From a virus, in IMG/VR virus record IMGVR_UViG_3300042453_004007, positions 1 to 21,002 of that record: a stretch of DNA of 21,002 bases, one strand, 5' to 3'. The notes under the pieces are model-generated. The model saw nothing but the letters and a program-made list of their open reading frames with translations. It did no database searches and was not told where the DNA came from. This document shows positions 5,647 to 20,909 of the stretch, piece after piece. Both the position numbers and the translations under genes were made by a program. The stretch's first letter is position 1; each line of letters starts with the position of its first letter.

Positions 5647-5663
5647 AATAGGTTACCAAAACG

Positions 5664-5691: not shown

Positions 5692-5716
5692 CTATCCGTC
5701 CTTATAGATATGTGAC

Positions 5717-5724
5717 TATTTATA
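5717..5724 (-). promoter_or_regulatory. T4-type late promoter TATAAATA
   Basis: A perfect TATAAATA on the minus strand in the 82-base gap between the stop at 5729 and the ATG at 5646. Initiation is expected near 5710. The transcript would run through the hairpin at 5668-5691 before reaching the structural gene. Confidence 0.85.
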
Positions 5725-5728
5725 AGGA

Positions 5729-6670: not shown

Positions 6671-6700
6671 TGATTATAAGCAGTGGCGGGCTTACAATCA
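6671..6700. repeat. Imperfect inverted repeat spanning a promoter
   Basis: Arms of 11 bases (TGATTATAAGC at 6671-6681 and GCTTACAATCA at 6690-6700) pair with one mismatch around an 8-base loop. The -10 element lies in one arm and most of the -35 in the other. It begins 14 bases after the stop at 6715. It could be an operator, or a 3' hairpin for upstream messages; no U-tract follows on the minus strand. Confidence 0.7.
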
Positions 6701-6701
6701 A
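6673..6701 (-). promoter_or_regulatory. Sigma70-type promoter TTGATT-N17-TATAAT
   Basis: On the minus strand a perfect -10 (TATAAT, complement at 6673-6678) is preceded at 17 bases by TTGATT (complement at 6696-6701), four of six matches to the -35 consensus. Initiation is expected near 6666, giving a leader of about 44 bases to the winged-helix gene. It sits in the only real gap of this gene cluster. Confidence 0.7.
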
Positions 6702-6714
6702 CGGAAGAGTTTGT

Positions 6715-7026
6715 TCAGGACTTCAACAGACGGCTCTTTGCCTTCGCAATCGCCGCGTGGATTTCATCTGCACTACAAGTCGTCTTCCAAACGGTCTGAG
6801 TTCTAGAACCGCAACTTGAGACCAAACTAGACATATAATCAAGTGCGTCCTTCTTAGTCATTGGGGAAGGAAGTGCAAAAAAATTGATATTGGTGTCAGT
6901 GCGCGAAAGCTGCTTGATCCGGCGAGCGACATTTGTCGCGAGGCGAATCTTGATAACTTCTGCCTTCTTCGTGGACACCCGCTTAGAAAACCCAACATGG
7001 TTAAAAAGATCTTCACTGTTTCGCAT
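6715..7026 (-). CDS. Small basic protein of unknown function
   Basis: I choose the ATG at 7026 (MRNSEDLFNHVGFSKRVSTK, 103 residues) because GGAG lies 6 bases before it; an adjacent ATG at 7029 and an upstream TTG at 7083 are less likely. The protein is basic and mainly helical (KKAEVIKIRLATNVARRIKQ), with a C-terminal helix EIHAAIAKAKSRLLKS. There are no TM segments or catalytic motifs. It follows the small gene at 7061 with a 34-base gap. I do not recognise a family. Confidence 0.55.
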   Translation of the reverse strand: MRNSEDLFNHVGFSKRVSTKKAEVIKIRLATNVARRIKQLSRTDTNINFFALPSPMTKKDALDYMSSLVSSCGSRTQTVWKTTCSADEIHAAIAKAKSRLLKS

Positions 7027-7060
7027 CATGTTCTCCGTCGAAGTTGAAGTCCTAAACTTA

Positions 7061-7267
7061 CTACCGGTCGGACGAGTTGTCAAGTGGCTGGCTGGAGGTG
7101 TTGTTTTCTGGAGACACCTCGCCTTCTTTTGCCAAATTTTGCAAATAGTCTAGAAACGGTTGCTCATCAATGTCTACATCATACCATCCCCGAAGTTGGG
7201 TGATCTGAGTATCTCTTGGAGGGGTGTTGGGGTCTTTCATATGGAAAGGTGGGTTTCTTGTCCTCAT
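7061..7267 (-). CDS. Very small acidic protein of unknown function
   Basis: From the ATG at 7267 (MRTRNPPFHMKDPNTPPRD) this encodes 68 residues. It is Pro-rich at the start, followed by a short acidic helix (YDVDIDEQPFLDYLQNLA) and a disordered Ser/Asn/Glu tail. The frame stays open upstream to a TTG at 7291, and the ATG has only a distant AGG, so the start is uncertain. It sits between the zincin-like gene (27-base gap) and the basic small gene in a tightly packed run, which is the main reason to believe it is real. Confidence 0.45.
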   Translation of the reverse strand: MRTRNPPFHMKDPNTPPRDTQITQLRGWYDVDIDEQPFLDYLQNLAKEGEVSPENNTSSQPLDNSSDR

Positions 7268-7294
7268 ACAAGATATACCAGCCTGAAACAAAAG

Positions 7295-7975
7295 TCAAGG
7301 GGCAATCAGCGGAGGGGCATGTGCCGTGGGGATCCACTTCCAGATCTTCCGAAATAGCTCTTTTTGGACTTTTGTCCAATCCATGTTCTTGAACATCTGG
7401 GTATAGATTCGATAGGTCTTGATGCGCTTCATCGTATCAAGGTTTCTCAGCACGGTAGATGTTGAGAGATGTGGATAAAATGCATTGATTTCCATCGCGA
7501 TATCATGGGCATACGCATCAATTTCGCTCTTATTTCTCAAATAATCAATTTCCGTAATTCTTGTTTTTGATATCCGTCGATTTTTCTGAACATGGATATT
7601 TTCCTCCAGCGACTTGGGGTGCTTGAGGTATTGTGCTTGATGCACCAATTCATGTTGCAGCGCCTGAGAAATCTCAAACACAAAACGGTTATAGGTATGT
7701 TTCGTATAGGTGAACGCAGATCGGCTAGGGTCCATGTGAACCGTAAGCCGCATCGGAAAGACCTTCAGGTCCGTGTCAAAGAACCCGGACACGGTGAAAT
7801 CTTGCCGTTTTCCGAATTGCAGCCCCCTATCAACCACCACCTGTGTCAGAAAACCAAAAGGCCGGAACCCGGCGCTCAAGCGGTGGCTGATTTCTGGGTA
7901 TCTAAGTTGTTTTCCAACAAGAGTTTGTGGGAACTGTTCTGATAGTGTAGCATTTATGGCGCCAGCAAGCAACAT
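7295..7975 (-). CDS. Zincin-like metallopeptidase-family protein
   Basis: This 226-residue protein carries a zincin helix FEISQALQHELVHQAQYLKH with H108, E109 and H112 of HExxH. About 40 residues later comes KSEIDAYAHDIAMEI, whose E151 is well placed as a third zinc ligand; this E-I-x-A-Y-A element is typical of small phage and bacterial zincin-like proteins. The C-terminal ~55 residues are basic and aromatic. Start choice is firm: GGAGGG lies 4 bases before the ATG. A late-type promoter motif (CATAAATA) lies just upstream inside a palindrome, so it is probably expressed late. Substrate is unknown; processing of a virion or host protein is inference only. Confidence 0.7.
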   Translation of the reverse strand: MLLAGAINATLSEQFPQTLVGKQLRYPEISHRLSAGFRPFGFLTQVVVDRGLQFGKRQDFTVSGFFDTDLKVFPMRLTVHMDPSRSAFTYTKHTYNRFVFEISQALQHELVHQAQYLKHPKSLEENIHVQKNRRISKTRITEIDYLRNKSEIDAYAHDIAMEINAFYPHLSTSTVLRNLDTMKRIKTYRIYTQMFKNMDWTKVQKELFRKIWKWIPTAHAPPLIAP

Positions 7976-7982
7976 AGACCCT

Positions 7983-8008
7983 CCATAAATATCCAGTTGT
8001 ATTTATGG
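7983..8008. repeat. Perfect 9-bp inverted repeat containing a late-promoter motif
   Basis: CCATAAATA (7983-7991) and TATTTATGG (8000-8008) pair perfectly around an 8-base loop. It lies 33 bases after the gp41 stop and just upstream of the zincin-like gene. Because of the symmetry, CATAAATA appears on both strands. No U-tract follows. Confidence 0.75.
8000..8007 (-). promoter_or_regulatory. Late promoter variant CATAAATA
   Basis: The minus strand reads CATAAATA, one base from the T4 octamer; the relaxed NATAAATA form is known from T4-like cyanophages. It lies 25 bases before the ATG at 7975, with a strong Shine-Dalgarno between. The tight spacing and the palindrome around it make it likely but less certain than the perfect octamers. 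Confidence 0.55.
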
Positions 8009-8041
8009 TTTGCCTAGGTTGCATGACTGGCACCGCCCCTA

Positions 8042-9340
8042 TCAATAGGAGTTCGCGGTGGTGGATATGTCGTACATCTTCATCCGAGACCGATCAATTC
8101 CAACCACAAACTTCTTACATAGGTTCATGTCCATGTAGCGGTTTTTTAGCTGTTTGAAGAGGATTTGCTGAAGATTTTCTAGCTCTTCCGTGCTAATCAG
8201 CGCAAGCATCAGATCAGCGGTCGCAGGGACGCCAAAGGATTCTGAGGTATGGGTCAGTTCAACCTCACTGTTGTCGTACCCATCCCGATTCGTCTGGGTT
8301 GCTGTAACTACTGGTACATTGAATTCAACCCCGAGACCTCGAATCTCTTCTGCGATAGCTTTCACCAGTGTGTACGCATTGATGTTACTAGATGCCTTGA
8401 ACCGACTGCTGGCGCAAATGTTCAAGTAATCAATAAACACCATGTCAGGCACAAAGTTCTTCTTGATCTGTAAATCTTGCAAAAGCGCACGAAAATGACC
8501 GGCATGTGCAGACGCCGTGGGGAACTCCTTGATAATCAACTGTCCCTCTGTCATGCTCCGGATTCGATTGATACGATCCATGAACTTGTCTTTTGAGATA
8601 CGAGACAAATCATGAACTGGTGTGTCTAGCAGATTCGCATCAATACGCTCGGCAATACGCTCTTCCGCCATTTCCATCGTGATGTACAACACATTCTTGC
8701 TCTGACTCAGCACATTCGCTGCCATGTGGCACATCACCGTAGACTTACCAACACCCGGACCTGCCATCAATACGGTTAGAGTCTTTTTGGCAATACCGTT
8801 TTTTGTAATACGATTCAGTGCCGAGATATCAAACGGGATTTTTTCTTCAACCCGAGTATAAAAATCGTGGCGAGCACTGGCATCTTCAAAAAGATCGTGC
8901 CCAATTGAATTGTTGAATGACACGGACAAGGCTTCTTGTAACAGCGATGGAATGGCATCCGCAGAATGCGTCTTGTCCTTTCCATCGATGATCTGGATAG
9001 AATGCAGAATGGCATTATACAACGCCTTGTCTTTGCAAAACTTTTCCGTCTCGGCGTAGAGCCAGTCCAGATTTTCCTTTACGGGATCTAGCTGATCCAG
9101 TACTTCTACAATTGCCTTATATGCAGATTCTATGACGCTCCGATCATTCTGCACATGAATCTTGAGCGCCGTGGTGGTTGGCAGCGTGTTGTATTCTTCA
9201 ACAAACGCCGTAATCGCACTCAGCACATATTTTTCTGAAGGATCCAAGAAATAGTCATCCCGCAAAAACGGGATGACCTTTCTCATATACTCTTCATTGT
9301 ACAGCAGGTTACTCAGAATTATTGTTTCGAGTCTGTTCAT
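8042..9340 (-). CDS. 41: Replicative DNA helicase, gp41 (DnaB family)
   Basis: This is the hexameric 5'-3' replicative helicase that unwinds the fork with the primase. It has 432 residues (T4 gp41 475). The N-terminus MNRLETIILSNLLYNEEYMR matches the T4 gp41 start. The RecA-like motor has Walker A GPGVGKST (194-201), hydrophobic Walker B ending MVFIDYLN (~291-298), and the DnaB-type segment VVTATQTNRDGYDNSEVEL followed by a sensor/Arg region. It lies downstream of uvsX and one small ORF, the T4 arrangement uvsX-40-41. The start overlaps the small ORF by 32 bases and has a weak Shine-Dalgarno, suggesting coupling. The last gene before a promoter/hairpin gap. Confidence 0.95.
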   Translation of the reverse strand: MNRLETIILSNLLYNEEYMRKVIPFLRDDYFLDPSEKYVLSAITAFVEEYNTLPTTTALKIHVQNDRSVIESAYKAIVEVLDQLDPVKENLDWLYAETEKFCKDKALYNAILHSIQIIDGKDKTHSADAIPSLLQEALSVSFNNSIGHDLFEDASARHDFYTRVEEKIPFDISALNRITKNGIAKKTLTVLMAGPGVGKSTVMCHMAANVLSQSKNVLYITMEMAEERIAERIDANLLDTPVHDLSRISKDKFMDRINRIRSMTEGQLIIKEFPTASAHAGHFRALLQDLQIKKNFVPDMVFIDYLNICASSRFKASSNINAYTLVKAIAEEIRGLGVEFNVPVVTATQTNRDGYDNSEVELTHTSESFGVPATADLMLALISTEELENLQQILFKQLKNRYMDMNLCKKFVVGIDRSRMKMYDISTTANSY

Positions 9341-9617
9341 TCTCTAGGGAGTCTTCGATGATCTTATGGAGGACAACGCTGATTTCCTGCTCAACTTCGC
9401 GTTTGACTTCATCGTCTTGAATGCTGTACCCTTCTGGGAGAGCTAGTACAGTGTAATCGAATGAGATGTTGCCATTTCCTTCCTCATCTTCTCCAGTGAA
9501 TTCAATCGGTCCAAATACAAAACTCGTACCTCTGTACTTTCCCTCGTTCAACACGAGATAGAACTCAGTGTTTGCATCGGGAAACTCTACATTCTCGACA
9601 ATCTTAAAGGGTTGCAT
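9309..9617 (-). CDS. Conserved small ORF between uvsX and gp41 (position of T4 gene 40)
   Basis: The start is placed at the ATG at 9617 (MQPFKIVENVEFPDANTEF, 102 residues), where GGAG lies 7 bases upstream; the frame is open to 9671 but that would overlap uvsX by 68 bases. The sequence VENVEFPDANTEFYLVLNEG, FVFGPIEFTGEDEEGNGNI and EISVVLHKIIEDSLEN looks like a compact beta-sheet domain with a C-terminal helix, and I recall similar ORFs at this place in marine T4-like phages. It overlaps the uvsX stop by 14 bases and the gp41 start by 32. Not recognisably similar to T4 gp40. Function unknown; a role with recombination or helicase loading is suggested only by position. Confidence 0.75.
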   Translation of the reverse strand: MQPFKIVENVEFPDANTEFYLVLNEGKYRGTSFVFGPIEFTGEDEEGNGNISFDYTVLALPEGYSIQDDEVKREVEQEISVVLHKIIEDSLENEQTRNNNSE

Positions 9618-10662
9618 CCTCATACTCCGCTTGAAGGTTAAAATCACTGGACAAAATATTGCCCCCTGCAATTACATAATTATCCTGAATCCACTTGGAA
9701 AACTGTGGGTTCCGAAGGATTGGAAGCCAGAACTCTTTGGTGTTGGTTTCCACATACTTATACTTGCGCTCATCATCGTAAAATTCTGCCGACTTCCGGA
9801 ATCCATGGCCATCTTTGATGACATGATTTGCTTCAAGCGCAACATCAATCAATCCAGACCATGTGTTGATACCACCGTCAAACAGGACTTCAACGGGAAT
9901 CTTGCTCTTCTCCCGAACATGTCTCGACTTCTCGACATTGATGATGAAGTTGTATCCAACAACATCAGTGCCGTCCTTTTCCTGCTGACGACCAATGATG
10001 AAGATGTTGTCCGCAGAGAGATATGGCCCTTGGCCACCAGACACAATATCCTTTGGATACATCCCCATTTCCTTATAGGTGTGGTTCACGACGACCATGG
10101 GAATGTTCTTCAAGGTGAGGTGCGGGGTACACATGCGGAACAGACTCTTTAGCTGTTTTGCCCGCGTCATGTCTGCCACCGCCTTGCCCTCAAGCGCGTC
10201 TTCTACTTCTTTCCGAGACGCCAGATTTCCAATAGAATCCACGATGATGATAATATGATCCCCTCGCTCAATCTTATCCAATTGATTCATGAGATCATAT
10301 TTCAGAACTTCAATATCCGTAACCGGAGAATGAAGAACACGGGTGGTATCGATCCCAAAGCTCTCAAAATAGGTCTGTGGGGATCCAAACTCGGAATCAT
10401 AGAATAGCAACACGGCGTCCTTGTATTTGTCAAGATATGCCTTTGCCATTAGCATGCAAAATGCGGTCTTGAAATGCTTACTGGGACCGGCGAATACGGT
10501 AAGGCCGGGAGTCAACCCTCCATCAAGACGGCCTGACAGTGCCACATTGACCATGGGCACCGCCGTCTGAATCATATCCTTGGTGGAAAAGAACTTCGAC
10601 TCCGACAGCACATCCGTTTCCTTGATAGTGCTGTTTTTTCGCATGCGAGATAGAAGGGACAT
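9604..10662 (-). CDS. uvsX: UvsX, RecA-like recombinase
   Basis: UvsX forms filaments on single-stranded DNA and carries out strand exchange for recombination-dependent replication and repair. The protein has 352 residues (T4 391). Walker A is GPSKHFKT (59-66), very close to T4 GPSKSFKS. The catalytic Glu lies in YDSEFGSP (E91), Walker B is IIIIVDSIG (~137-145), and loop L2 lies around VVNHTYKEMGMYPKDIVSGG. The C-terminus is acidic. A strong AAGGAG overlaps the end of gp43 and fixes the start 11 bases after the gp43 stop. gp43, uvsX, small ORF and gp41 form one operon. Confidence 0.95.
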   Translation of the reverse strand: MSLLSRMRKNSTIKETDVLSESKFFSTKDMIQTAVPMVNVALSGRLDGGLTPGLTVFAGPSKHFKTAFCMLMAKAYLDKYKDAVLLFYDSEFGSPQTYFESFGIDTTRVLHSPVTDIEVLKYDLMNQLDKIERGDHIIIIVDSIGNLASRKEVEDALEGKAVADMTRAKQLKSLFRMCTPHLTLKNIPMVVVNHTYKEMGMYPKDIVSGGQGPYLSADNIFIIGRQQEKDGTDVVGYNFIINVEKSRHVREKSKIPVEVLFDGGINTWSGLIDVALEANHVIKDGHGFRKSAEFYDDERKYKYVETNTKEFWLPILRNPQFSKWIQDNYVIAGGNILSSDFNLQAEYEDATL

Positions 10663-10673
10663 AACAGATCTCC

Positions 10674-13253
10674 TTAGAAAAGATCGTTGAGAGTGGCAGC
10701 AGGACGAACAGACCAGTTAAGGCTTGAGAGGATGACCTCCAGTGGATCAAGGAAGGTCTTCTCGAACATCTTGTCGTAGTCTACATACGACAACAAGTTA
10801 AAATCTAAAGGGAACGACCCAAAAAAAGCAACTACGTTTTCGTGAATCGGATTAGGTACTTTCAGAAACACAAACTTAATCTTGTCTCCATCACGGATCT
10901 TCTCATACTTCTTGCCCAGATCCAACTGATCTAGCAGCCGATTGTGCAGAATAGCAGCGCGAACATGAATTGGTGTCTTCTTCGCATAGATTGTATGAGG
11001 AGAACTGTACTTGACGATGCCATTCACGCCGCGAGGAAACGCAATCTTTTCAACCGGCAGCCGGGAAAACTGATCTTCAAGGTCTCGAATGAAGCCTTGC
11101 AGGTCTCTCTCGTTTTTCATGAGAATGATCTTCATGGCATCTTTGAGTTGCTTCCGCACAAAGCTTGGAGTGCTGCTTCGAACGATTTCCAAGCCCAACA
11201 CCTTCAGCTTCGGCTCCTCAAACCGAACCCCTTCCTTGTCATGAATGAACATCGCATATCGCTTCTTCGAAACCCAAATACCACTCTCGGCAATCGCCTC
11301 TCGCTTGAACGAGATCTTGTTTTGAAACGCATGCGTGTCCTGTGCAATTTCACGAGATACTCGGTCAATCGCCGGAATGATCTTCTCTCTGCAAATTGTA
11401 TCAATCAGTTCAACGAGCTTTGGGGTCGAACGGGTTGCAGACAGATGCGACTGTACGGCGGCTCCAAGGGTAATATAGCAGGAGTCGGTGTCGCTGTAGA
11501 ATGCATAATCCACATTTGATGTTTTGAAAAACTTGTTCAGGTACTCATTCATGCGCTGAGTGACAAGCTGAATGATGTACTGTCCCGTCAAGGTGATGCC
11601 TTCTGCGATGCGTGGATCATAGAAGCGAAAGAACCTATTGGCCATGGAACCGTAGAGCGAGTTCAACTGAATCTTTCGCGCCATCTGAAAGTTGTTGTAC
11701 CGCGACACCTTTTTATGTTCAGCAATCAACTGCTGCTGGAGGTGGGCCTCATCTGCCGAATTCGTACAGGTTCGAATCGCCTCTTCCAACTGTACGACAC
11801 GGCGTTCCGCGTCAATCATCTTGTTCTTGAATGCCACTCGGTCAGCAAAGATTTTCTCGACGACTTCCGGGAATAGTCCCATTTTATCGCGACGGTAGCA
11901 ATATCCATTGGCTGCCATGGCGTAATTTTTCTGCACGAGGTCGTCCGTCTGCGTAAACTTCTTCTCCAGTAGGATCTCAGGGGTACACATATACGGAGGC
12001 TCTTGCACCAATGTCTCTGGAGACATGTTATACTGCATGATGATGGACGGATACAGGGAAGTCGCGTCAAAGGAGCATATCCAATGGTATTTCCCCGGCA
12101 CTGGCTCCTTGACATATGCGCCAGCAATCTTTCTTCCCTCGTGATCCTCATTCAGAGGCACCACGATGTTCTTCTCCAACAGATGATTGTAGAGAATGCA
12201 GTCCCATGTACGCACTGCCGAGAATACATCGGCGTAATTACATTTTGCGTAATACGCCATGGAAATTGCCATCTCAATCAACTTCATCTTGTCTTCCAGT
12301 TCATCGACAAGCTCAACGTCTACGATGTTATACTCGACAAAGTGGTGCCAGTCGTTCGTATAGAAATCCTTGAAGGTATCGTATTCGGTTTCGAGTTTCT
12401 TTTTGTCGAGTTCTACCGACGCAATATGGTCTAGCTTATAGCTCTCTTGGCGGCTATAGGTGAACTTCTGATAGAGTTCTAGGTAGTCAAGAGTGCTGAT
12501 GCCGAGTAGGTCATAAATCATCCACTGGCGGTCATTCTTGGTGACATCGCGAGTGCGAACAATCTCCCATGGTGACAGCCGCTTGGCGGCGTCTTCGCCC
12601 AACACGCGAATGATGCGATTGTGTAGGTATGGAATGTCAAAGAACTGGATATTCCACCCCGTGATGACATCAGGGGCGAGATGCTGCCAGAGCTTGAGAA
12701 ACTTCTTCAGAAGGTCCACTTCATTCTTGCAGTGAACATATTGCACGAGGTGCTTGTTTTTCACATGCTGAATTGCCGTGGTGTCAAACGGCTTAGTACC
12801 GAACGAGAACAGTTCCTTCGTCTTGTAGTCTTGCAGGGTAATGACCAGCAACTCTTCAAGGGGGTTCTGTACGTCTGGGAAACCTAGTTCTGAGGTGGTC
12901 TCAATGTCGAGCGTGATAATCTTGACATGATCCAGATCAAAATCAATCGCCTCTGGATAGTGCTCCGTGATGTATTGGTAGGCGAACCGCGTATTCCCAT
13001 ATATCTGAAAGTTCTCGACTGACTTGTATTCGTCAAGAAATCCCTTCGCCTTTTTGATGGAAGGAAAAAATATGGGCCGAAGTGCGTTCCCATGAATATC
13101 CGTGTACCCGGACGGCGTCTCATTGTGTCGAGACGGCTGGACAAACAGGACCGGCTCATATTTTTCAACCTGCTGCACCCGCCGCCCGTCTTCGACGCGA
13201 CGAACCAACAAGGAGTTGCCGTTTTGCACTACATTGGTATAGAATGCGCTCAT
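10674..13253 (-). CDS. 43: DNA polymerase gp43 (family B)
   Basis: The replicative polymerase with 3'-5' proofreading, 859 residues (T4 898). Exo I is TLDIETT (D116, E118), Exo II TGWNIQFFDIPYL (~198-210), and Exo III YNIVDVEL. Polymerase motif A is DATSLYPS (396-403), motif B KIQLNSLYGS (K527), and motif C YSDTDS (D588, D590). The C-terminus ends TLNDLF, a short hydrophobic tail like the T4 sliding-clamp contact. All catalytic residues are present. The ATG (MSAFYTNVVQNGN) is the only sensible start, but it has no close Shine-Dalgarno; a GAGG lies 25 bases upstream. A promoter embedded in a 13-bp inverted repeat precedes it. T4 gp43 represses its own translation through a leader hairpin; whether this one does is unknown. 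Confidence 0.97.
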   Translation of the reverse strand: MSAFYTNVVQNGNSLLVRRVEDGRRVQQVEKYEPVLFVQPSRHNETPSGYTDIHGNALRPIFFPSIKKAKGFLDEYKSVENFQIYGNTRFAYQYITEHYPEAIDFDLDHVKIITLDIETTSELGFPDVQNPLEELLVITLQDYKTKELFSFGTKPFDTTAIQHVKNKHLVQYVHCKNEVDLLKKFLKLWQHLAPDVITGWNIQFFDIPYLHNRIIRVLGEDAAKRLSPWEIVRTRDVTKNDRQWMIYDLLGISTLDYLELYQKFTYSRQESYKLDHIASVELDKKKLETEYDTFKDFYTNDWHHFVEYNIVDVELVDELEDKMKLIEMAISMAYYAKCNYADVFSAVRTWDCILYNHLLEKNIVVPLNEDHEGRKIAGAYVKEPVPGKYHWICSFDATSLYPSIIMQYNMSPETLVQEPPYMCTPEILLEKKFTQTDDLVQKNYAMAANGYCYRRDKMGLFPEVVEKIFADRVAFKNKMIDAERRVVQLEEAIRTCTNSADEAHLQQQLIAEHKKVSRYNNFQMARKIQLNSLYGSMANRFFRFYDPRIAEGITLTGQYIIQLVTQRMNEYLNKFFKTSNVDYAFYSDTDSCYITLGAAVQSHLSATRSTPKLVELIDTICREKIIPAIDRVSREIAQDTHAFQNKISFKREAIAESGIWVSKKRYAMFIHDKEGVRFEEPKLKVLGLEIVRSSTPSFVRKQLKDAMKIILMKNERDLQGFIRDLEDQFSRLPVEKIAFPRGVNGIVKYSSPHTIYAKKTPIHVRAAILHNRLLDQLDLGKKYEKIRDGDKIKFVFLKVPNPIHENVVAFFGSFPLDFNLLSYVDYDKMFEKTFLDPLEVILSSLNWSVRPAATLNDLF

Positions 13254-13282
13254 GAGATGAGTAAAGGAAAAATATATCCTCT

Positions 13283-13311
13283 AATGTAGCAACACCACGG
13301 ACTTATGTCAA
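13283..13311 (-). promoter_or_regulatory. Sigma70-type promoter TTGACA-N17-TACATT before gp43
   Basis: On the minus strand a perfect -35 TTGACA (complement at 13306-13311) is followed after 17 bases by TACATT (13283-13288), four of six matches to the -10. Initiation near 13276 gives gp43 a short leader of about 23 bases. The -35 is in the loop and the spacer in one arm of the inverted repeat at 13289-13326. Confidence 0.65.
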
Positions 13312-13326
13312 GATCCGTGGTGTTGC
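13289..13326. repeat. Perfect 13-bp inverted repeat upstream of gp43
   Basis: GCAACACCACGGA (13289-13301) and TCCGTGGTGTTGC (13314-13326) pair without mismatch around a 12-base loop. It begins 27 bases after the stop of the Sm-like gene. It would be a very stable RNA hairpin in read-through messages, but no U-tract follows on the minus strand, so it is not a standard terminator. It overlaps the gp43 promoter, so an operator role is equally possible. Confidence 0.85.
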
Positions 13327-13353
13327 CGCATTGTGCATTTTCATTCGGTGTCA

Positions 13354-13659
13354 TTAAGACAGGATCTTGAGATCCTCTGCGCTCGCCATGACAATTCCGG
13401 AAGTCACCCGAATGTATTGGTTTTTCAGATCGTCGGTTGGAGCCACGGAAAACAGAATGTTATCATTCTGGATCACAAACTCACGCTCCTTTGCATACGG
13501 GACGAATGGAGCAAACGCCACATTAAAAGACGTATTGTTTCGCGAAGGCACCACGATAAGCTGAATTGGATCGACGAGAATCGTGGTGTTCCCTGCGAGA
13601 CTTCCTTTTGTTTCGCTGATGAGTTCTTCACCAGTGATCAGCTTCACACACTTAATCAT
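13354..13659 (-). CDS. Small Sm-like (Lsm fold) phage protein
   Basis: This 101-residue protein begins MIKCVKLITGEELISETKGS, then TTILVDPIQLIVVPSR and later a second beta-rich part ending YIRVTSGIVMASAEDLKIL. The opening (hydrophobic strand, LxxGEExI, strand, DPxxL) fits the Sm1 half of an Sm/Lsm barrel, and I recall similar small proteins near the replication genes of cyanophages. An RNA-binding role is suggested by the fold and by its place between Hsp20 and gp43, next to the RNA-binding RegA, but is inference. There is no Shine-Dalgarno (the ATG follows ATATATC); it lies 25 bases after Hsp20. An inverted repeat and the gp43 promoter follow its stop. Confidence 0.7.
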   Translation of the reverse strand: MIKCVKLITGEELISETKGSLAGNTTILVDPIQLIVVPSRNNTSFNVAFAPFVPYAKEREFVIQNDNILFSVAPTDDLKNQYIRVTSGIVMASAEDLKILS

Positions 13660-13684
13660 GATATATTGAGTTAGAGGGAGATGT

Positions 13685-14131: not shown

Positions 14132-14135
14132 AATA

Positions 14136-14155
14136 TCTCCTTGAAAAATGGTTAT
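14136..14155 (-). repeat. Leader motif shared with the winged-helix gene (copy 1)
   Basis: The minus strand reads ATAACCATTTTTCAAGGAG, directly before the Hsp20 start and including its Shine-Dalgarno. A second copy, ATAACCATTTTTCAGGAG, occurs before the winged-helix gene at about 6631-6648. The two copies differ by one A. The match extends well beyond what the Shine-Dalgarno alone requires. Confidence 0.7.
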
Positions 14156-14580
14156 CTCTTTTTTCCAATGGTGTACTTTGTTTGCAAGTTCCACTGAGGT
14201 TTTTCGTCAAATGACAATACCTTGATTTGTGACAGTGGTGCAAATCCTTGAATTCGTTCCGGGTGGCAGAGCTTCACCAGATTCCATTCAGCCAACATCA
14301 TGGCTACGGTGTTTCTTCGTTGCAAATCGTTCTCTGAAAGATCCGCTTGCTTGCCGTCAAGAATGAATAACTCTTTGAAGTGAACGATATAATATCGACC
14401 CTGTTTGTGCAAGATATGACAGCTTTGATATAGCGTCTTATCCTTTCGAGAGGCGACCCCAATTCGTGTGAGGGTTTCTCGAACTTTCAAAAAATCATCT
14501 TGGGTGTGTAACAACACCTGTATTGATGCGTAATTCGGAACTGCTGAATTACGAAATAGGTCATGTACGTTCATCTCCAT
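14152..14580 (-). CDS. regA: RegA translational repressor
   Basis: RegA binds AU-rich start regions of early phage mRNAs and blocks their translation; in T4 it targets gp44, gp45 and many early genes. The 142-residue protein (T4 122) contains the T4-like core DFLKVRETLTRIGVASRKDK, LYQSCHILHKQGRYYIVHFK, DGKQADLSENDLQRRN and a C-terminal KYTIG. It has about 15 extra N-terminal residues. The start is the ATG at 14580 with GGTGG eight bases upstream; an ATG at 14574 is possible. It overlaps gp62 by 20 bases and sits where T4 has it, after gp62. A TATAAATA octamer lies 93 bases upstream, inside gp62. Very likely correct. Confidence 0.93.
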   Translation of the reverse strand: MEMNVHDLFRNSAVPNYASIQVLLHTQDDFLKVRETLTRIGVASRKDKTLYQSCHILHKQGRYYIVHFKELFILDGKQADLSENDLQRRNTVAMMLAEWNLVKLCHPERIQGFAPLSQIKVLSFDEKPQWNLQTKYTIGKKR

Positions 14581-15019
14581 TTTTCAATCCACCTGTACTT
14601 AATCGTTTCTTAATGGCCAAAATTTGGTCGTCTGTCAGTATTGACAACGCCTGTAAAGCCTTTTCTGTGTTGTATTTATAATACTGCTTGACAACATCCA
14701 GATGCTCTACCAGTTGCGGCTTCACCCACTGCGTGAACCGCTGGCGCTTTCTGACACTATTTATAAGAAACGTGAACTGCATGTGGTTGTCCAACGAAGG
14801 ATACCGATTCATCTCATTCGCATAGAACAGCGTGTCCAACGAATGACTGAGGGCGCGATTGACGATGAATTTGTTATACTGCCGTTCGCCGTCTTCGACC
14901 TCCATCATGTTTTTCTTGGTGTGTTCGATGGCCTTCACATAATCAAATGGACTGATCTTGTGTGTCTTGGGCTTATCATCAACCTCCGGAAGAATCTCGT
15001 CGCCGTCTAAGTTACGCAT
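14561..15019 (-). CDS. 62: Clamp loader small subunit gp62
   Basis: gp62 joins four gp44 subunits to make the T4-type clamp loader. This one has 152 residues (T4 187). Recognisable core segments are SPFDYVKAIEHTKKNMM (~23-39), YNKFIVNRALSHSLDTLFYA, NEMNRYPSLDNHMQFTFLIN, VRKRQRFTQW and, near the end, DDQILAIKKRL. The ATG lies three bases after the gp44 stop without a clear Shine-Dalgarno (GAATAGCCT precedes it), suggesting coupling with gp44. Two perfect late-promoter octamers lie within the gene. Identification rests on the conserved core and the gp45-gp44-gp62-regA order. Confidence 0.92.
   Translation of the reverse strand: MRNLDGDEILPEVDDKPKTHKISPFDYVKAIEHTKKNMMEVEDGERQYNKFIVNRALSHSLDTLFYANEMNRYPSLDNHMQFTFLINSVRKRQRFTQWVKPQLVEHLDVVKQYYKYNTEKALQALSILTDDQILAIKKRLSTGGLKNGDERT
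14673..14680 (-). promoter_or_regulatory. TATAAATA octamer inside gp62 (candidate late promoter for regA)
   Basis: A perfect minus-strand TATAAATA lies in the coding region of gp62 (over Tyr-Lys-Tyr codons), 93 bases before the regA ATG. It may be a late promoter for regA and Hsp20, or may be there because of the codons. Confidence 0.4.
14758..14765 (-). promoter_or_regulatory. Second TATAAATA octamer inside gp62
   Basis: Another perfect minus-strand TATAAATA lies 85 bases upstream of the first, again inside gp62 (over Ile-Asn codons in a different reading phase). Two octamers in one 459-base gene are more than chance would suggest. Confidence 0.4.
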
Positions 15020-15022
15020 AGG

Positions 15023-15964
15023 CTATTCAAAGGTGCAAGACTTCATGATCTGCGATAGGCATGCGGTCATGTTGAGTTCTTGGTCATGACAGAACGCTGC
15101 CATATATTGATAGTGCGCCAAGATCAATACCAACTCTTCTGGTTGTGAGGTTTTTGGCAGGAACGCATCATAGATCTTGCGGAAGAGTGGTCCCACATCA
15201 TTGTTGACATGCGTGGCTACCCACTGCCGAATGTTATTGAACTGCTTTTTCTTCACGCACTCCAACAGATCTACCAGTCGAGCATCTGCCTGATTGCCGA
15301 GAGCCGCCGGGGAGATCTTTCCAGACGCCGCTTGTCGCTGAAGTTCATTCAGGACGCGACGAAAATCTGGGAAATGGTGTGTGATCAATGCGGCGACCAC
15401 CTTGCCGTCATACTCTACATTCTCTTGTTGGAGGATGTCTTTTACACGAGAGTAGAACTGCATGGCCAGCAGCTTTTTCTCATCGGGAGTGATAGAGAAG
15501 TCAATCACGGTTGTCCGAGAGTGCAATTCCTTGATGATACGATTCTTGTAGTTGCAGGTAAAAATGAATCGGCACACTCGGCTGTACTCTTCCATGAACC
15601 GACGAAGGGCTGGCTGCGTGGAATTTTGGTTGAGGTAATCAGCCTCATCCAAGATGACTACCTTGATATTAGATTCCAGCGACACGGTGCTGGCAAAGTA
15701 GCGAATCTTGGTTCGAAGCACATCAATCCCAGACTCCTCAGAGCCGTTGATGATCATGTATTCCACACCCATCTCTTTGCACATGGCCATCGCCACCGTG
15801 GTCTTGCCTACGCCAGAGGGGCCAGCCAGAATGAGATTGGGGATATTTTTCTGATCGACAAACGCCTGAAAGGTTTCTCGCAGTGATGTGGGGAGAACAC
15901 AGTCAGCCACCCGCTCAGGGCGCCACCGCTCTACCCACAGAAACTCTGATGTGTTTGGATGCAT
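15023..15964 (-). CDS. 44: Clamp loader large subunit gp44 (AAA+)
   Basis: gp44 is the ATPase of the clamp loader that opens the gp45 ring and places it on primer-template DNA. It has 313 residues (T4 319). The N-terminus has WVERWRPERVADCVLP, typical of clamp loaders. Walker A is GPSGVGKT (48-55), Walker B VVILDEAD (102-109), sensor 1 FIFTCNYKN (~134-141). The arginine-finger motif reads SRT (149-151) where most relatives have SRC; the Arg is kept. The ATG overlaps the gp45 TAA by one base (TAATG), a coupling arrangement. Confidence 0.96.
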   Translation of the reverse strand: MHPNTSEFLWVERWRPERVADCVLPTSLRETFQAFVDQKNIPNLILAGPSGVGKTTVAMAMCKEMGVEYMIINGSEESGIDVLRTKIRYFASTVSLESNIKVVILDEADYLNQNSTQPALRRFMEEYSRVCRFIFTCNYKNRIIKELHSRTTVIDFSITPDEKKLLAMQFYSRVKDILQQENVEYDGKVVAALITHHFPDFRRVLNELQRQAASGKISPAALGNQADARLVDLLECVKKKQFNNIRQWVATHVNNDVGPLFRKIYDAFLPKTSQPEELVLILAHYQYMAAFCHDQELNMTACLSQIMKSCTFE

Positions 15965-16695
15965 TAATTGATCGTTCGAAGAATTGGAAAATTTTCTGTG
16001 GTATGAATGCGCGAATTTTCTTCTGTTGCAACTAGGTAGGACGGGGTGCGACCCACCGACGACCCGCGACCCTCGAAATAAAACACAACAACTGACCCAG
16101 CCCGTCCAATTGCCTCACACACGTACACCGTATAGTCGTCTGGCATCATCTTGAACAAGTCCATGCTCATGATTGCGGAAAATGGCACACCACTCGGCGG
16201 CAGGTTGATCTTGAACCCGTGCTTCGACGACTTACTCTTAACCCGTAAAACGACCTCTGTTCCGTCTCCTACAACGGACAGGGTCGTCGCTTCAAGGGTA
16301 GACGCCGTCTTAAGAATCGTCTGCCATTCCTCCTTGGTGAGAGGAAAGGAATACACCTTCTGTAGATTTGGCAACTCTCGCTTTGGAAGGCTCTGAATAA
16401 GCGAGGCGTCTGTGTAAAAGTAATCCACAGACTGGTTCGACGACATGTGAACCGTAAGGTGATCCTCAGCAAATGACAAATGGCAATTCTTGTCAATAGA
16501 CAAAATCATCAAGAACTGATTTAGATCATAGAGAGAAAACTGGCGAGGGAATTCTTCTTCTACATGGACTCTCGCCTGAATGCTATTCACCTGATCGTTT
16601 TTGATGGACAGAAAATTTCCAGCCTCAACCGTAATGCTCTGGCTGATCTGAGAGAAGTTTCTGAGGATGTTTATGGTGTGGGGGCTAATCTTCAT
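15964..16695 (-). CDS. 45: Sliding clamp gp45
   Basis: The trimeric processivity ring for gp43; in T4 it also activates late transcription. The 243-residue protein (T4 228) starts MKISPHTINILRNFSQISQS, matching cyanophage and T4-type clamps, with EEFPRQFSLYDLNQFLMIL and a C-terminal half of clamp-like beta strands. I prefer the ATG at 16695 by family similarity; an ATG at 16704 would add MAP. Neither has a good Shine-Dalgarno, and the start overlaps the DUF3310 gene by 11 bases. Because late promoters occur in this window, this clamp probably also serves late transcription; that is inferred from T4. Confidence 0.94.
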   Translation of the reverse strand: MKISPHTINILRNFSQISQSITVEAGNFLSIKNDQVNSIQARVHVEEEFPRQFSLYDLNQFLMILSIDKNCHLSFAEDHLTVHMSSNQSVDYFYTDASLIQSLPKRELPNLQKVYSFPLTKEEWQTILKTASTLEATTLSVVGDGTEVVLRVKSKSSKHGFKINLPPSGVPFSAIMSMDLFKMMPDDYTVYVCEAIGRAGSVVVFYFEGRGSSVGRTPSYLVATEENSRIHTTENFPILRTIN

Positions 16696-17074
16696 CGGCG
16701 CCATTCGTTTGAAGAACTGGGCTATCTTGCAGGTAATGAATATGCAACAAGATCAATCCATAGTGCAAAATCTTCAAGATGTCCTTTCGATTGTAGCCTT
16801 CTTTCTTTCCATATCGCAGTGCATACTTGATGATGTTTCCTAAGACATAATCTTCACCCATTCCAGCCGCAATAATAACCTCTGCCGCCTGAATGCCACG
16901 CATTGCGTAGTGTTGTTTATAAGTAGACGCAATATACGCTTCTAGCTCGGCTAACCCGCTGATTTCGCTATACAGGCAATCTTCTGTCAACTTCCATGAG
17001 CCATCGTCTGTATGGTCATCATTACTGAAGAAATCGGGAATGATGTCTTCTAACGCTCTACTTTCACTTTTCAT
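16685..17074 (-). CDS. DUF3310 (SaV-like) domain protein
   Basis: This 129-residue protein has an acidic N-terminal half followed by the DUF3310 pattern at ~52-113: YKQHYAMRGIQAAEVIIAAG, DYVLGNIIKYALRYGKKEGY and RKDILKILHYGLILL. The family is widespread in phages as a short domain with a conserved GNxxKYxxRxxxK core; its biochemical role is unknown to me, though some members are annotated as nucleotide-kinase related. The ATG follows a very AU-rich stretch (ATAATAT) and has no Shine-Dalgarno. It lies three bases after the zinc-ribbon gene and overlaps gp45 by 11 bases, so it is probably co-translated in the clamp operon. Confidence 0.85.
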   Translation of the reverse strand: MKSESRALEDIIPDFFSNDDHTDDGSWKLTEDCLYSEISGLAELEAYIASTYKQHYAMRGIQAAEVIIAAGMGEDYVLGNIIKYALRYGKKEGYNRKDILKILHYGLILLHIHYLQDSPVLQTNGADED

Positions 17075-17077
17075 ATA

Positions 17078-17491
17078 TTATAGTTGTGATGGGTAACTAA
17101 CACCTAGCGAATTCATAAAAACAGGTGAAAGGGGGATGGTGTCTTTCCCGTGTTGCGGACATACCGTAACGAGCCAACCTGCTGGAGTCTTTCTCGTTTC
17201 TCCACAACCTACGGAAGTCTTTCTCGTTTCTCCGGGTTCACCACAAATCTCACAGATATGATGGCTGCGTAATGACAATTCCACGATCTTATCTTCAATG
17301 TCCTTGTCATAGATTGAGGTGTATACGCGAAGCCCCCCAAACTTTTCCTTCACCTGAATAACCTTCACCGGAAAGTTTCTCTCCTCCAGTAAGGCATAGA
17401 GTTCCTCAATCAGTGGGTGCCATCCGGCACCCACTGACATCTTTGCATGTTCCTTGTCACAAGGAAGAAACCGAAAGTTCTTGGTGTTCAT
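17078..17491 (-). CDS. Small zinc-ribbon phage protein with internal 10-residue duplication
   Basis: This 137-residue protein has the conserved phage pattern GWHPLIEELYALLEE (~23-37) and VIQVKEKFGGLRVYTSIYD (~44-62). A zinc-ribbon follows, with CEIC at ~80-83 and CPQH at ~111-114. Between the two zinc knuckles there is a tandem repeat, GETRKTSVGC then GETRKTPAGW, produced by a 30-base in-frame duplication. The ATG overlaps the stop of the MoxR gene as ATGA, so the genes are coupled. Many phages carry relatives as a hypothetical protein; its role is unknown. The longer loop may be a recent change, as the DNA copies are still identical over 17 bases. Confidence 0.75.
   Translation of the reverse strand: MNTKNFRFLPCDKEHAKMSVGAGWHPLIEELYALLEERNFPVKVIQVKEKFGGLRVYTSIYDKDIEDKIVELSLRSHHICEICGEPGETRKTSVGCGETRKTPAGWLVTVCPQHGKDTIPLSPVFMNSLGVSYPSQL
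17187..17233. repeat. Tandem 30-bp direct repeat inside the zinc-ribbon gene
   Basis: GTCTTTCTCGTTTCTCC occurs at 17187-17203 and again at 17217-17233, exactly 30 bases apart. The flanking bases of each unit are also partly alike. The period is ten codons, so the frame is kept. Confidence 0.9.
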
Positions 17492-18591
17492 GTGGACGAA
17501 TTCACAGACAAGACAGAGTTAATGACATCAAGCTCGCCCATGTCGGGGTGGACATACGGCTTCTGCCAATCCGGATCAACCTTGGTGTACAGGTCAAAAA
17601 ACGCCTTCTTGGTGTTATCATCAAAACGGGCAATCGACATGTTGATAGCCTTTTCACGGCTCTGAAATACCGCAAAGGCATTCACAATATGCTCTAGGCG
17701 CCGAGTGGTGATGATATCTTCAACCGCCCCGTCTGCATAAGACCGGCGAATAACATCTGACCAAGTAACGAGCTTCCCCGCAAAATCCTCGTCTACCACA
17801 CCAGTCTTCTTCATCTTACGGAGCACAATCAGGTTTTCCGTGTTCATGGGCGGGTATTCCTGCTGGAACGCCACGGCAAATCGCTCAAGGAACGCATCAT
17901 CAAGGATCTGCGCACTGATATATCGCGTGTCGTCCACGCCAAACCCCTTGGTGTTCGCCGTCGCGACAATGTTAAAGCCGGGAGCCGGATGAATTAGCTC
18001 CTGCGTCTTCTTGTTGAAATACGGCTTGCCCTCCAGAATGGACTGAAGGCACATGAGCTTGTTACTGCCGCGATCAATCTCGTCGAGGATAAGTACCGCT
18101 CCACGGCGCAGCGCAGTAAGCACCGGACCCTCGCGAAACACGACATTTCCATCAATCAGCGTATGACCTCCAATAAGGTCATCCTCATCCGTCTCAATGG
18201 AAATATTGACGCGAATAGCCTCTCGCTTGAGCGATGCACACGCCTGTTCCACCATAGTGGTCTTGCCGTTGCCTGACATACCGACGATGTAGACCGGAAA
18301 GAACATATTCGCAGAAATGATTTTACGCAAATCTGCGTAATGCCCAAATGCGACGAAAGTCGGATCCTTTACCGGAACGAGCGAAGACGCCTTGGTGGAG
18401 ATATTCGTCGAAGTCGCCTCTCCAGAGATTGAATACACCCCGTGCCGCACACGAAACTGACTGTTGGTTAGAATTGGCTGCGGTGAAACATTCACTCGCT
18501 GGGCAAGCTCAATAACTTCAGCCCGAGTAAACTCAGTCTTGCCAGAGGCGTTCATCGCGGTGCGAAGCGCAGAATCGATTTGCATGGTCAT
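17488..18591 (-). CDS. cobS: MoxR/CobS-like AAA+ ATPase
   Basis: This 367-residue protein is an AAA+ ATPase of the MoxR/CobS type, a core gene of T4-like cyanophages where it is usually named CobS. Walker A is GMSGNGKT (104-111), Walker B VLILDEID (~166-173), sensor 1 VATANTKG (~209-216), and an Arg finger lies in DDAFLERFAV. The segment ANTKGFG and ISAQILDDAFLERF is close to true CobS proteins. I place the start at the ATG at 18591 (MTMQIDSALRTAMNASGK); a TTG at 18624 lies upstream of the predicted transcription start, and an ATG at 18585 is possible. It pairs with the VWA/HExxH gene just upstream, the usual MoxR-VWA partnership. Since no CobN is visible, a cobalt-chelatase function is doubtful. 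Confidence 0.85.
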   Translation of the reverse strand: MTMQIDSALRTAMNASGKTEFTRAEVIELAQRVNVSPQPILTNSQFRVRHGVYSISGEATSTNISTKASSLVPVKDPTFVAFGHYADLRKIISANMFFPVYIVGMSGNGKTTMVEQACASLKREAIRVNISIETDEDDLIGGHTLIDGNVVFREGPVLTALRRGAVLILDEIDRGSNKLMCLQSILEGKPYFNKKTQELIHPAPGFNIVATANTKGFGVDDTRYISAQILDDAFLERFAVAFQQEYPPMNTENLIVLRKMKKTGVVDEDFAGKLVTWSDVIRRSYADGAVEDIITTRRLEHIVNAFAVFQSREKAINMSIARFDDNTKKAFFDLYTKVDPDWQKPYVHPDMGELDVINSVLSVNSST

Positions 18592-18611
18592 GTATGATGT
18601 GTGGGTGAATC

Positions 18612-18638
18612 CCTCTCCCCGCAATATACGAGGAGAGG
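18612..18638. repeat. Inverted repeat centred on the -10 of the MoxR promoter
   Basis: CCTCTCC (18612-18618) and GGAGAGG (18632-18638) are perfect 7-base arms around a 13-base spacer. The dyad centre at 18625 coincides with the -10 hexamer (18623-18628). Such placement fits a repressor operator, or a hairpin in messages reading through from the VWA gene. Confidence 0.65.
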
Positions 18639-18652
18639 AATGGTCGTGTCAA
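18623..18652 (-). promoter_or_regulatory. Sigma70-type promoter TTGACA-N18-TATATT
   Basis: On the minus strand a perfect -35 TTGACA (complement at 18647-18652) is followed after 18 bases by TATATT (18623-18628), five of six matches. It lies directly after the stop of the VWA gene at 18657. Initiation near 18616 leaves a leader of about 25 bases to the ATG at 18591. Confidence 0.75.
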
Positions 18653-18656
18653 GGGT

Positions 18657-20837
18657 CTATACGAGATTCTTCGAAATGGATGATGTGAATCGATTGATGA
18701 AGATCTTGTCGTTCACTTCGTTGATTCGATTGGTTGAAAACTGGTTTGTCAGATTTTCAATCTCCTGCTTTTTCAGATTCTTCGCGCTGGAGGACTTCCG
18801 TTTGGAGTTGATCGAATACCACCCACGCGGCGAGGAAGACGCCGAATCCAACGTCATGATAAAAAACGAGTCAAACCCAAGGATGTCAATTGACACCAAG
18901 TTGTGCTTCGTCGATAGATCTTCTAGAATAAAAATCTCCTGCTGCGGCCTGATATAGCCCTTGAATTTGTCAGCGATTTGCATCAGAAAGTTTGTGTATG
19001 ATGTCTCTCTGGAACTGTGCAGGTAACCGCCCGCCATCTGGTCCAACATCGTTTTTTCGACCAAGAAATACCCCAGCACATTTACCTTCTCGGTCTTACG
19101 AAGCAGTTCAAGTAGAACATATGGCATGAGGGCACCAGCGTTTCTCTCTGTCACCTTTTTGTAATCGGCCCCGTGAATCTTGGCATCTTTATGAACGACC
19201 ATCGTTTTAGTTGACAATGTCACAGCGGCGTTTGCTCCATCCACCAAACTACTGGTGGCATCTCCATCACTAAGAACTACTACATTCAACACTTCCGGCG
19301 CATAGGTTTTCTTGAAATTCTGGGTAACTGCGAACAAGGCTAGCGTTGCTTCCGCCAACGGAGTTCCACCCAATGTAAGATTGTGGGGAGTTGTCGGAAA
19401 CGGGCCGGTTGACCACGGAAATCCCAACTCGTTCACAAAATACTCTAGATCTTCTTTCAGCCGATTATACGTGCCAGCCGTCGCCAACAGAATCCCAACT
19501 GCCATCTTGAACGTGTTCTTGTCCATTCCACTATGCAACAACTGGTGCAGACGAAACGCTTCGTCTTTTGGGCGAAGGTTCAGATGATCATTCTTAAGTG
19601 TCCTGTTCCCACCAGCATAATGATAACCCGGCAGATTTAACCGTGTGTCGCTAAATGCATACATCTCAAACGGAATGTTGACACGCTGACAAAAGATCGC
19701 AAAGTTAATGGCTTGCTGTAAGGTGTTTTTCATGACACGGCACATGCTTGCTGAAAAATCCAGCAGCATGATCATGCCGTGATTCTTTGCTTGCGGAATG
19801 ATCGTGGTATTAAGAAACATGTCATCTGTGAACTTGTTCTTCCATAGACGATTCATGTCGAGCTTACCAGTACGGGCCGTTCGCTTCTTGTCCATCATAT
19901 GTGCCGCCTTCTTGACCTCAAATTCGCGTACCATCTGGTCAAGCTTTGCCTTGTTTTTTCTCACAAACCTCGCATACGCCGCGAACAGAAGGGGGTTCGA
20001 TATGCGGTGTTCTGGTGTTGTCAACTTAATGGCATCGTACAAAGCCTTCGACGGAATAACGCACTCTTCTAACGACGGAATGTTAAGCTTGAAGATTCGT
20101 TGCAGAGACTCTGTCGCAGTTCCATTGAAAGACACGCGACAAAAGGAGTCAAGTGGAGAATCCGTGAGGATCTCTGTCTCTTTCTGCCCACTAATATATC
20201 CTTCCGTACCCCCCCACTCGTAAACCTGATCGGGTTGGCCAGCTTCACGGAGGTCCGAAGTTTCGTGTTTATGATGTTGAAACAGCTTCTTCGCAACCGT
20301 TACCACATCTTCGAATGTTTGTACCGCGTCCATCTCGGCAATAAGCTGCTTCTCTGCTTCGTCCTCGAATTTGAGAAGCACTCGTGCGCCAAGCTTAAAG
20401 TGCAGATTAGCCCGATCCGCAAACACTAGATCGTGCATCTCCTTTTCGGTCTTCACACCAAAGAACCCATCCCGAAGCAGCACACCATACCCAGCGATCA
20501 TCGTGCGCCGAAGGCCGGGATATTTCCTCTGAATGTTCTTTTCGATACGAACATCTTCTACAATGTTCAATACCTGCTTGAAGATGCGCTGGGTCTTCCC
20601 GTCATATTCATCCAGCGCAGCAAGCCACTTGACAGGATCGGTATACAGGGCGTGACCGACCTCATGCCCAATCATGAGATCCTCGACATCCTCATCAAGC
20701 GAGGCCCACTGCGGAAGAACAAGCCGACGCGCCGTCACATCAAAATACGGGCTCTGACACTCTGCCGAATAGTCCACAATGATGTTTTCGGTCGAGAGTA
20801 GTTTGCCAAGGATGACCTTTTGTTCAGTGGTCTTCAT
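18657..20837 (-). CDS. VWA-domain protein with N-terminal HExxH metallopeptidase-like motif (CobT-like partner of MoxR)
   Basis: This protein has 726 residues. Near the N-terminus, LMIGHEVGHALYTDP gives HEVGH (H58, E59, H62), and about 32 residues on NIVEDVRIEK offers E94 as a third zinc ligand. The von Willebrand A domain occupies ~350-600 with the full MIDAS: DFSAS (D360, S362, S364), T492 in GGTPLAEA, and LSDGDAT (D524). The tail after ~650 is basic and Ser-rich. In phage annotations the relative is called CobT or peptidase; VWA plus MoxR pairs usually remodel or insert metals into partner proteins. The ATG has GGAG six bases before it and a consensus promoter. It starts the run with the MoxR ATPase 66 bases downstream. 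The substrate is unknown. Confidence 0.85.
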   Translation of the reverse strand: MKTTEQKVILGKLLSTENIIVDYSAECQSPYFDVTARRLVLPQWASLDEDVEDLMIGHEVGHALYTDPVKWLAALDEYDGKTQRIFKQVLNIVEDVRIEKNIQRKYPGLRRTMIAGYGVLLRDGFFGVKTEKEMHDLVFADRANLHFKLGARVLLKFEDEAEKQLIAEMDAVQTFEDVVTVAKKLFQHHKHETSDLREAGQPDQVYEWGGTEGYISGQKETEILTDSPLDSFCRVSFNGTATESLQRIFKLNIPSLEECVIPSKALYDAIKLTTPEHRISNPLLFAAYARFVRKNKAKLDQMVREFEVKKAAHMMDKKRTARTGKLDMNRLWKNKFTDDMFLNTTIIPQAKNHGMIMLLDFSASMCRVMKNTLQQAINFAIFCQRVNIPFEMYAFSDTRLNLPGYHYAGGNRTLKNDHLNLRPKDEAFRLHQLLHSGMDKNTFKMAVGILLATAGTYNRLKEDLEYFVNELGFPWSTGPFPTTPHNLTLGGTPLAEATLALFAVTQNFKKTYAPEVLNVVVLSDGDATSSLVDGANAAVTLSTKTMVVHKDAKIHGADYKKVTERNAGALMPYVLLELLRKTEKVNVLGYFLVEKTMLDQMAGGYLHSSRETSYTNFLMQIADKFKGYIRPQQEIFILEDLSTKHNLVSIDILGFDSFFIMTLDSASSSPRGWYSINSKRKSSSAKNLKKQEIENLTNQFSTNRINEVNDKIFINRFTSSISKNLV

Positions 20838-20863
20838 AAATCTCCGAAGAATGTTGTCTTCCT

Positions 20864-20909
20864 AACTTATAACCTCCCTCAACACGATTGTCAAGGGAGG
20901 TTATAAGTT
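20864..20909. repeat. Perfect 16-bp inverted repeat upstream of the VWA gene
   Basis: AACTTATAACCTCCCT (20864-20879) and AGGGAGGTTATAAGTT (20894-20909) pair perfectly around a 14-base loop, the longest perfect palindrome seen in the window. It follows the histone-like gene's stop by 16 bases. No U-tract follows on either strand. The loop holds the -35 and the distal arm the -10 of a promoter. Confidence 0.9.
20866..20894 (-). promoter_or_regulatory. Sigma70-type promoter TTGACA-N17-TATAAG
   Basis: On the minus strand a perfect -35 TTGACA (complement at 20889-20894) is followed at the ideal 17 bases by TATAAG (20866-20871), five of six matches. Initiation near 20859 gives a leader of about 22 bases with a good Shine-Dalgarno for the VWA gene. 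This is the best host-type promoter in the window. Confidence 0.8.

Follow-up and report, generated by a model that had tools for sequence, protein, structure and literature searches.

Why should the strong promoters of a T4-like phage each lie on an inverted repeat of its own? The question is raised by a 21,002-base stretch of viral DNA (IMG/VR record IMGVR_UViG_3300042453_004007, positions 1 to 21,002), called the window below. An initial annotation noticed four sigma70-type promoters overlapping inverted repeats in its intergenic gaps and offered two explanations: compact elements in which a 3' hairpin for the upstream gene is combined with a promoter for the next, or promoters regulated by DNA structure or by read-through RNA. 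The analysis favors the first of these. Each site is probably a composite 3'-end/early-promoter element of the type called PeSL (promoter-early stem-loop).

All four sigma70-like promoters lie on the minus strand, each in the gap ahead of a gene. Site 1 (TTGATT-17-TATAAT, 6701-6673) is upstream of a phrog_4973-like gene (6365-6622), site 2 (TTGACA-17-TACATT, 13311-13283) of the gp43 DNA polymerase gene (10674-13253), site 3 (TTGACA-18-TATATT, 18652-18623) of a cobS-like gene (17488-18585), and site 4 (TTGACA-17-TATAAG, 20894-20866) of a cobT-like gene (18657-20837). Sites 1-3, the three best of the annotated sites, were recovered on the minus strand by a promoter scan, and site 4, which is outside the scanned range, was confirmed by reading the sequence directly. 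The overall observation was partly borne out. The scan returned 36 promoter-like matches where 26.4 were expected, which indicates that the weaker matches are mostly noise. An equally good match (10/12) on the other strand, at 4983-5011, is antisense within a gene and overlaps no strong stem. The four promoters would presumably be used early by the host RNA polymerase.

The stem-loops, also on the minus strand, differ in strength and in how they hold the hexamers. At site 1 a weak stem of 11 base pairs (bp), TGATTGTAAGC CCGCCACT GCTTATAATCA (6671-6700), has both hexamers in its arms. Site 2 has a stem of about 18 bp (13283-13332, core 13289-13326) with the -35 TTGACA in its loop, and the stem-loop of site 3 (18609-18641) has the -10 TATATT in its loop region. 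The stem at site 4 (20864-20909) is 21 bp long with a loop of 4 nucleotides (nt); the -35 ends its 5' arm and the -10 lies in its 3' arm. The coding-strand sequences are CGTTGATTGTAAGCCCGCCACTGCTTATAATCAG, GCGGCAACACCACGGATCTTGACATAAGTCCGTGGTGTTGCTACATT, TTGACACGACCATTCCTCTCCTCGTATATTGCGGGGAGAGGGAT and AACTTATAACCTCCCTTGACAATCGTGTTGAGGGAGGTTATAAGTT for sites 1-4, and their RNA folds have minimum free energies of -12.6, -29.6, -23.2 and -31.0 kcal/mol.

A stem scan of the whole window found nine stems scoring at least 12, including sites 1-4 at 12, 22, 16 and 24; in 15 dinucleotide shuffles of the window the top stem never scored above 16. When the flanks were shuffled with the hexamers fixed, an equal or better stem arose in 23, 0, 2 and 0 of 1000 shuffles for sites 1-4. 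The stem-loops at sites 2-4 are far above chance, and that at site 1 is marginal. Strong hairpins also occur inside genes (17410-17437 and 533-579) and are thus not confined to promoters. The first of these is a perfect, GC-rich 12-bp hairpin within the codons of a small gene (17078-17491) just after cobS.

The overlap itself is less telling than it looks. Because the four gaps are just 71-100 nt long, overlap is mostly forced: a hairpin placed at random would overlap the promoter with p = 0.67, 0.92, 0.87 and 1.00, a product of 0.53. What is surprising is the presence of the hairpins, and their overlap with the promoters is a by-product of compact gaps. The claim that every promoter lies on an inverted repeat therefore holds in that all four overlap one, three of them a stem beyond chance, but the overlap was to be expected and site 1 is marginal. 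The promoters had also been placed 14-27 nt after the preceding stop codon. That spacing is right for the hairpins (about 14, 27, 15-18 and 16 nt) but not for the -35 boxes (about 13, 42, 4 and 31 nt).

The window is a contig of an uncultured T4-like myovirus, assigned from its proteins: it encodes gp41-type helicase, UvsX, gp43, Hsp20, RegA, gp62, gp44, gp45, CobS-like and CobT-like proteins, and the minus strand carries all of its genes. Its gp43 is at most 47% identical to those of cultured phages, with cyanophages nearest, and about 55-57% identical to those of the best metagenomic contigs. A megablast of the window against phage records returned no match and so no close relative among the records searched, and relatives had to be found through proteins. 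The comparison sample consisted of 168 dereplicated loci (2.0 Mb) containing relatives of gp43, cobS or gp44, cited below by L-number. Other queries gave little: a locus scan with the window's cobT found 0 loci, one with the cobT of L089 found only 5, and relatives of the gene after hsp20 in Synechococcus phage S-T4, a cultured relative that has an element of this kind with its hairpin behind hsp20, came to 5 loci, too few for covariation.

In the relatives, promoters were taken at 10/12 or better, a strong stem was one scoring at least 13, and the expectation came from hexamer-preserving shuffles. Of 275 intergenic sense promoters, 35 overlap a strong stem, against 0.8 expected; inside genes, 4 of 501 promoters do. 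The hairpin centers are bimodal. Measured from the first base of the -35, they lie either at 0-7 nt, which puts the loop over the -35, or at 27-32 nt, which puts it over the -10, and none lies between 7 and 21 nt. Two registers are what independent constraints predict, with arms avoiding the hexamers unless these happen to be complementary.

Orthologous junctions, counted in gaps of at least 45 nt, separate the two parts of the element. A promoter is present in 20 of 21 cobT gaps, 38 of 40 cobS gaps and 36 of 42 gp43 gaps (94/103 in total), whereas gaps with an overlapping hairpin number 8, 8 and 10 (26/103). A first table of relatives at the gp43 junction hinted at no conservation, but closer relatives gave the opposite result. 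Among phages 70-100% identical to L089 in gp43, four states of this junction were found: the -35 in the loop (L246-L254, L268), the -10 in the loop (L272, L291), a hairpin just upstream of the -35 (L263 and L270), and none. Site 2 has the -35-in-loop register, as in L082 and L089; the gap between a phrog_527-like gene and gp43 is common to all three, and the arm sequences are unrelated. Ahead of cobS, the loop is over the -10 in the window and over the -35 in L169 and L177, and the hairpin takes the upstream position in L087 and L163. These varying states indicate that the hairpin is kept through pairing rather than sequence, and that it is moved or replaced on a short evolutionary scale. On this comparison the promoter is under strong selection, and the hairpin, which can be gained, lost and re-registered, appears to be an interchangeable 3'-end signal packed onto it.

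The check proposed with the initial annotation, that arms should covary in related phages while the -35 and -10 persist, came out in its favor in two small sets. In the cobT gap (four sequences: L084, L089, L090, L091), 95% of cells pair and 9 of 16 pairs have changed on both sides; none of 500 shuffles reached the observed covariation, and slid controls paired at 27-45%. In the gp43 gap (five sequences), 2 of 10 pairs have changed on both sides and 2 more vary on one side only. Neither set shows any change in the -35 or the -10 apart from TATACT/TACATT variants.

Wobble pairs in the relatives' stems bear on whether DNA or RNA is paired. With G-U and A-C equally allowed in the search and unique sites counted, the coding strand has 28 G-U and 4 A-C mismatches (p = 2e-5). 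Symmetry at the DNA level would give G-T and A-C in equal number, so the pairing has been selected on coding-strand RNA. Most or all of the 5' arm is upstream of the point where these promoters start transcription, and the hairpin RNA must therefore come from upstream read-through, as the initial annotation had held. The hairpins are real: they covary, and their wobbles are biased as expected for RNA. The promoter is conserved where the hairpin is optional. The elements most likely act at the RNA level.

Formed by upstream transcripts only, and 14-27 nt past the stop codon, the hairpin would have as its simplest function the 3' end of the upstream message. Polymerase coming from the upstream gene would transcribe the hairpin shortly past that gene's stop codon, and the hairpin would terminate the message or shield its 3' end. 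Within the same few dozen bases, the host-type promoter would start the next transcript too far along for it ever to hold the full hairpin, with most or all of the 5' arm left out. The promoter is the conserved part. As the gap is short, the hairpin would be fitted around the hexamers, with its loop over the -35 or -10, or placed just upstream.

How would such a hairpin end a message? In relatives, the tails past the 3' arm are T-rich, with about 4.3 T per 8 nt in both registers against 3.0 and 2.7 in controls. In L291 a 15-bp stem that holds the -10 in its loop runs into T6, and this hairpin, like those of L219 and L028, counts among the textbook terminators. Together with the covariation around preserved hexamers, the G-U bias and the anatomy of phage RB49 described below, these U-tracts support the compact 3' hairpin and promoter that the initial annotation had put forward, and the hairpins would define the 3' ends of upstream messages. 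By analogy with the class, intrinsic termination may operate at the four window sites as well.

Other observations weigh against this account. About three quarters of the orthologous promoters have no overlapping hairpin, which means that a 3' hairpin is generally unnecessary at these junctions. The four window hairpins have tails with just 0-3 T, and with no U-tract they do not fit the pattern of an intrinsic (Rho-independent) terminator, in which a GC-rich hairpin runs straight into one. Unlike them, a canonical intrinsic terminator, a hairpin followed by T6, is present in the same phage at 5668-5691 on the minus strand, in a gap (5647-5728) that has no sigma70-like promoter.

The last two points lend themselves to the main rival, in which the hairpins are stabilizers or processing sites of mRNA 3' ends: transcripts would run on, end by another route and then be shortened as far as the hairpin. 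Its position 14-27 nt past the stop codons suits this as well. In about half of the relatives' overlapping hairpins, however, the tails are T-rich to a degree well above controls, and textbook terminators are among them, which makes stabilization or trimming an unlikely explanation, if the best of the alternatives.

A further proposal adds to the composite element a coupling of termination and initiation within 30-50 nt, in which a read-through hairpin folding on the hexamers tunes the firing of the downstream promoter. If true, it would explain why loops lie over the -35 or -10 and nowhere else, but it is improbable. Most relatives keep the promoter and lack the pairing, an outcome named in advance by the initial annotation as adverse; it counts against obligatory coupling and, with the wobble asymmetry opposing DNA structure, against promoter control by DNA structure or read-through RNA in general.

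It is less probable again that the inverted repeats switch the promoters as operators for a protein or as DNA cruciforms. Dyads over the -35 or -10 are in typical operator positions, and a conserved dyad, TAAGTTGTTGATTTTCAANNACTTA, stands 7-9 nt upstream of the cobT and cobS -35 in one clade of relatives. The arms, however, are wholly different between sites and between orthologous sites, with none of the conservation that a dimeric protein's operator would show, and the promoters persist without the dyad. The longest string common to the window sites is 9 nt, with little shared beyond the hexamers, so the initial annotation was right to doubt a single operator protein. The 28:4 excess of G-U over A-C is not explained by a symmetric DNA dyad, and on arm divergence and wobble asymmetry this explanation was rejected.

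Silencing of translation is a very slim prospect. The leader of T4 gene e forms a hairpin in upstream transcripts only, with a late promoter embedded in its 5' strand (PMC3014915). This is a precedent in T4-related phages, and at the window sites too promoter-made RNA would miss the 5' arm and could be translated where read-through RNA is silenced. In gene e the hairpin buries the ribosome-binding site. At the four sites the 3' arms end at least about 24 nt before the start codons, the ribosome-binding sites are uncovered, and when read-through RNA is folded, its starts are not clearly more buried than those of the short RNA; with starts not buried, silencing of this type was rejected there. 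Coincidence, in which small gaps happen to hold hairpins and promoter-like strings that have nothing to do with each other, and to which the 0.53 chance of overlap given one hairpin per gap and the marginal site 1 lend something, is just as remote overall, being contradicted for sites 2-4 by their strength and by the enrichment, covariation and register bias in relatives, and for site 1 the case is marginal. N4-type single-stranded hairpin promoters were dropped on general knowledge (a T4-like phage, ordinary sigma70 hexamers, freely varying arms), and Rfam 15 covariance models at gathering score gave no match in the window.

The composite element has known counterparts. A PeSL is a composite promoter/stem-loop element, known since 2010, whose stem-loop terminates transcription effectively, with a reported role in modular shuffling and typically found in hyperplastic regions. 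PeSLs were reportedly described by Arbiol et al. in 2010 and Comeau et al. in 2014 in the T4-type phages RB49/phi1, PST/T4 and nt-1/KVP40. In positions 1-50000 of RB49, which were read directly, hairpins overlap 8 of 15 intergenic promoters and adjoin another 4, and the -35 of the gp43 promoter falls in the loop of its hairpin. The registers are those of the window and its relatives, plus hairpins inside the spacer. These RB49 elements correspond to the PeSLs of those two studies.

The window sites resemble PeSLs in having a strong sigma70-like promoter ahead of an open reading frame, together with a stem-loop (strong at sites 2-4, weak at site 1), with both packed into one short cassette between genes of a T4-like phage, and by this analogy they may be called PeSL-like. 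They differ in that they flank the core replication genes gp43, cobS and cobT, are without U-tracts, and share almost nothing beyond the hexamers, the longest common string being 9 nt, not enough for modular shuffling; there was no sign of recombination between the window cassettes. PeSLs of T4-type phages are referred to in passages of two citing papers (PMC4503421 and PMC3950731). In the same vein, a passage on the haloarchaeal myovirus HGTV-1 describes a TATA-box/inverted-repeat motif before many open reading frames, which its authors liken to PeSLs (PMC3950731). HGTV-1 shares the pairing of promoter element and inverted repeat, but its promoter is of archaeal type and its motif a single conserved one, whereas the window arms vary freely.

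Other features were seen along the way. A better match to the T4 gene e leader than the four sites is the late-promoter-like CATAAATA (8000-8007, within 7976-8041 on the minus strand). It is part of the 5' arm of a hairpin, CCATAAATA/TATTTATGG, with 9 perfectly paired bp, and gene 7295-7975 has its GGAGG ribosome-binding site where the 3' arm runs into it, which is the anatomy of gene e (PMC3014915). In the minus-strand gap 5647-5728, a late-type box TATAAATA (5717-5724) lies within a short inverted repeat, CCTTATA...TATAAGG, and is followed by the U6 terminator at 5668-5691, with a virion protein gene (4270-5646) downstream; a second TATAAATA is in a gap at 1822-1829. The dyad TAAGTTGTTGATTTTCAANNACTTA is conserved in sequence at the cobT and cobS junctions of L082, L084, L089, L090 and L091, and TTTCAACAACTTA, half of it, is present at site 4. 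The gene upstream of cobT (20926-21002, minus strand) has a lysine/alanine/arginine-rich C-terminal tail (KTAVRGKKTAKTAKKVAKKTRRKS) resembling a histone-like basic tail.

The leaders of phrog_4973 orthologues (L177, L239, L202, L014, L187, L183, L174) have a hairpin just before the ribosome-binding site, with a loop complementary to a downstream stretch and apparent compensation (GGTCTC/GAGACC vs GGTCGC/GCGACC). They are candidate pseudoknot leaders; an Rfam search of ten loci that included them gave no match at those leaders. The ROSE_3 family is known from heat-shock gene leaders, and a match to this thermosensor (RF02523, 51.7 bits) is found in a relative, at L202:4506-4572.

PeSL-type elements have reportedly been described in cultured enteric and Vibrio T4-like phages, and the window adds a deep, uncultured branch of the T4-like phages to the range of this known type. 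Their presence there, beside core replication genes, suggests that T4-like genomes in general tend to pack a 3' hairpin onto a promoter. Placing a promoter and a folded-RNA end signal in one gap saves space, as is already known from other T4-like phages, and the comparison separates the two parts: a strongly selected promoter, and a hairpin that is gained, lost and re-registered with its pairing maintained as RNA. Annotators who search for promoters and for terminators independently will overlook such elements or put them in the wrong place.

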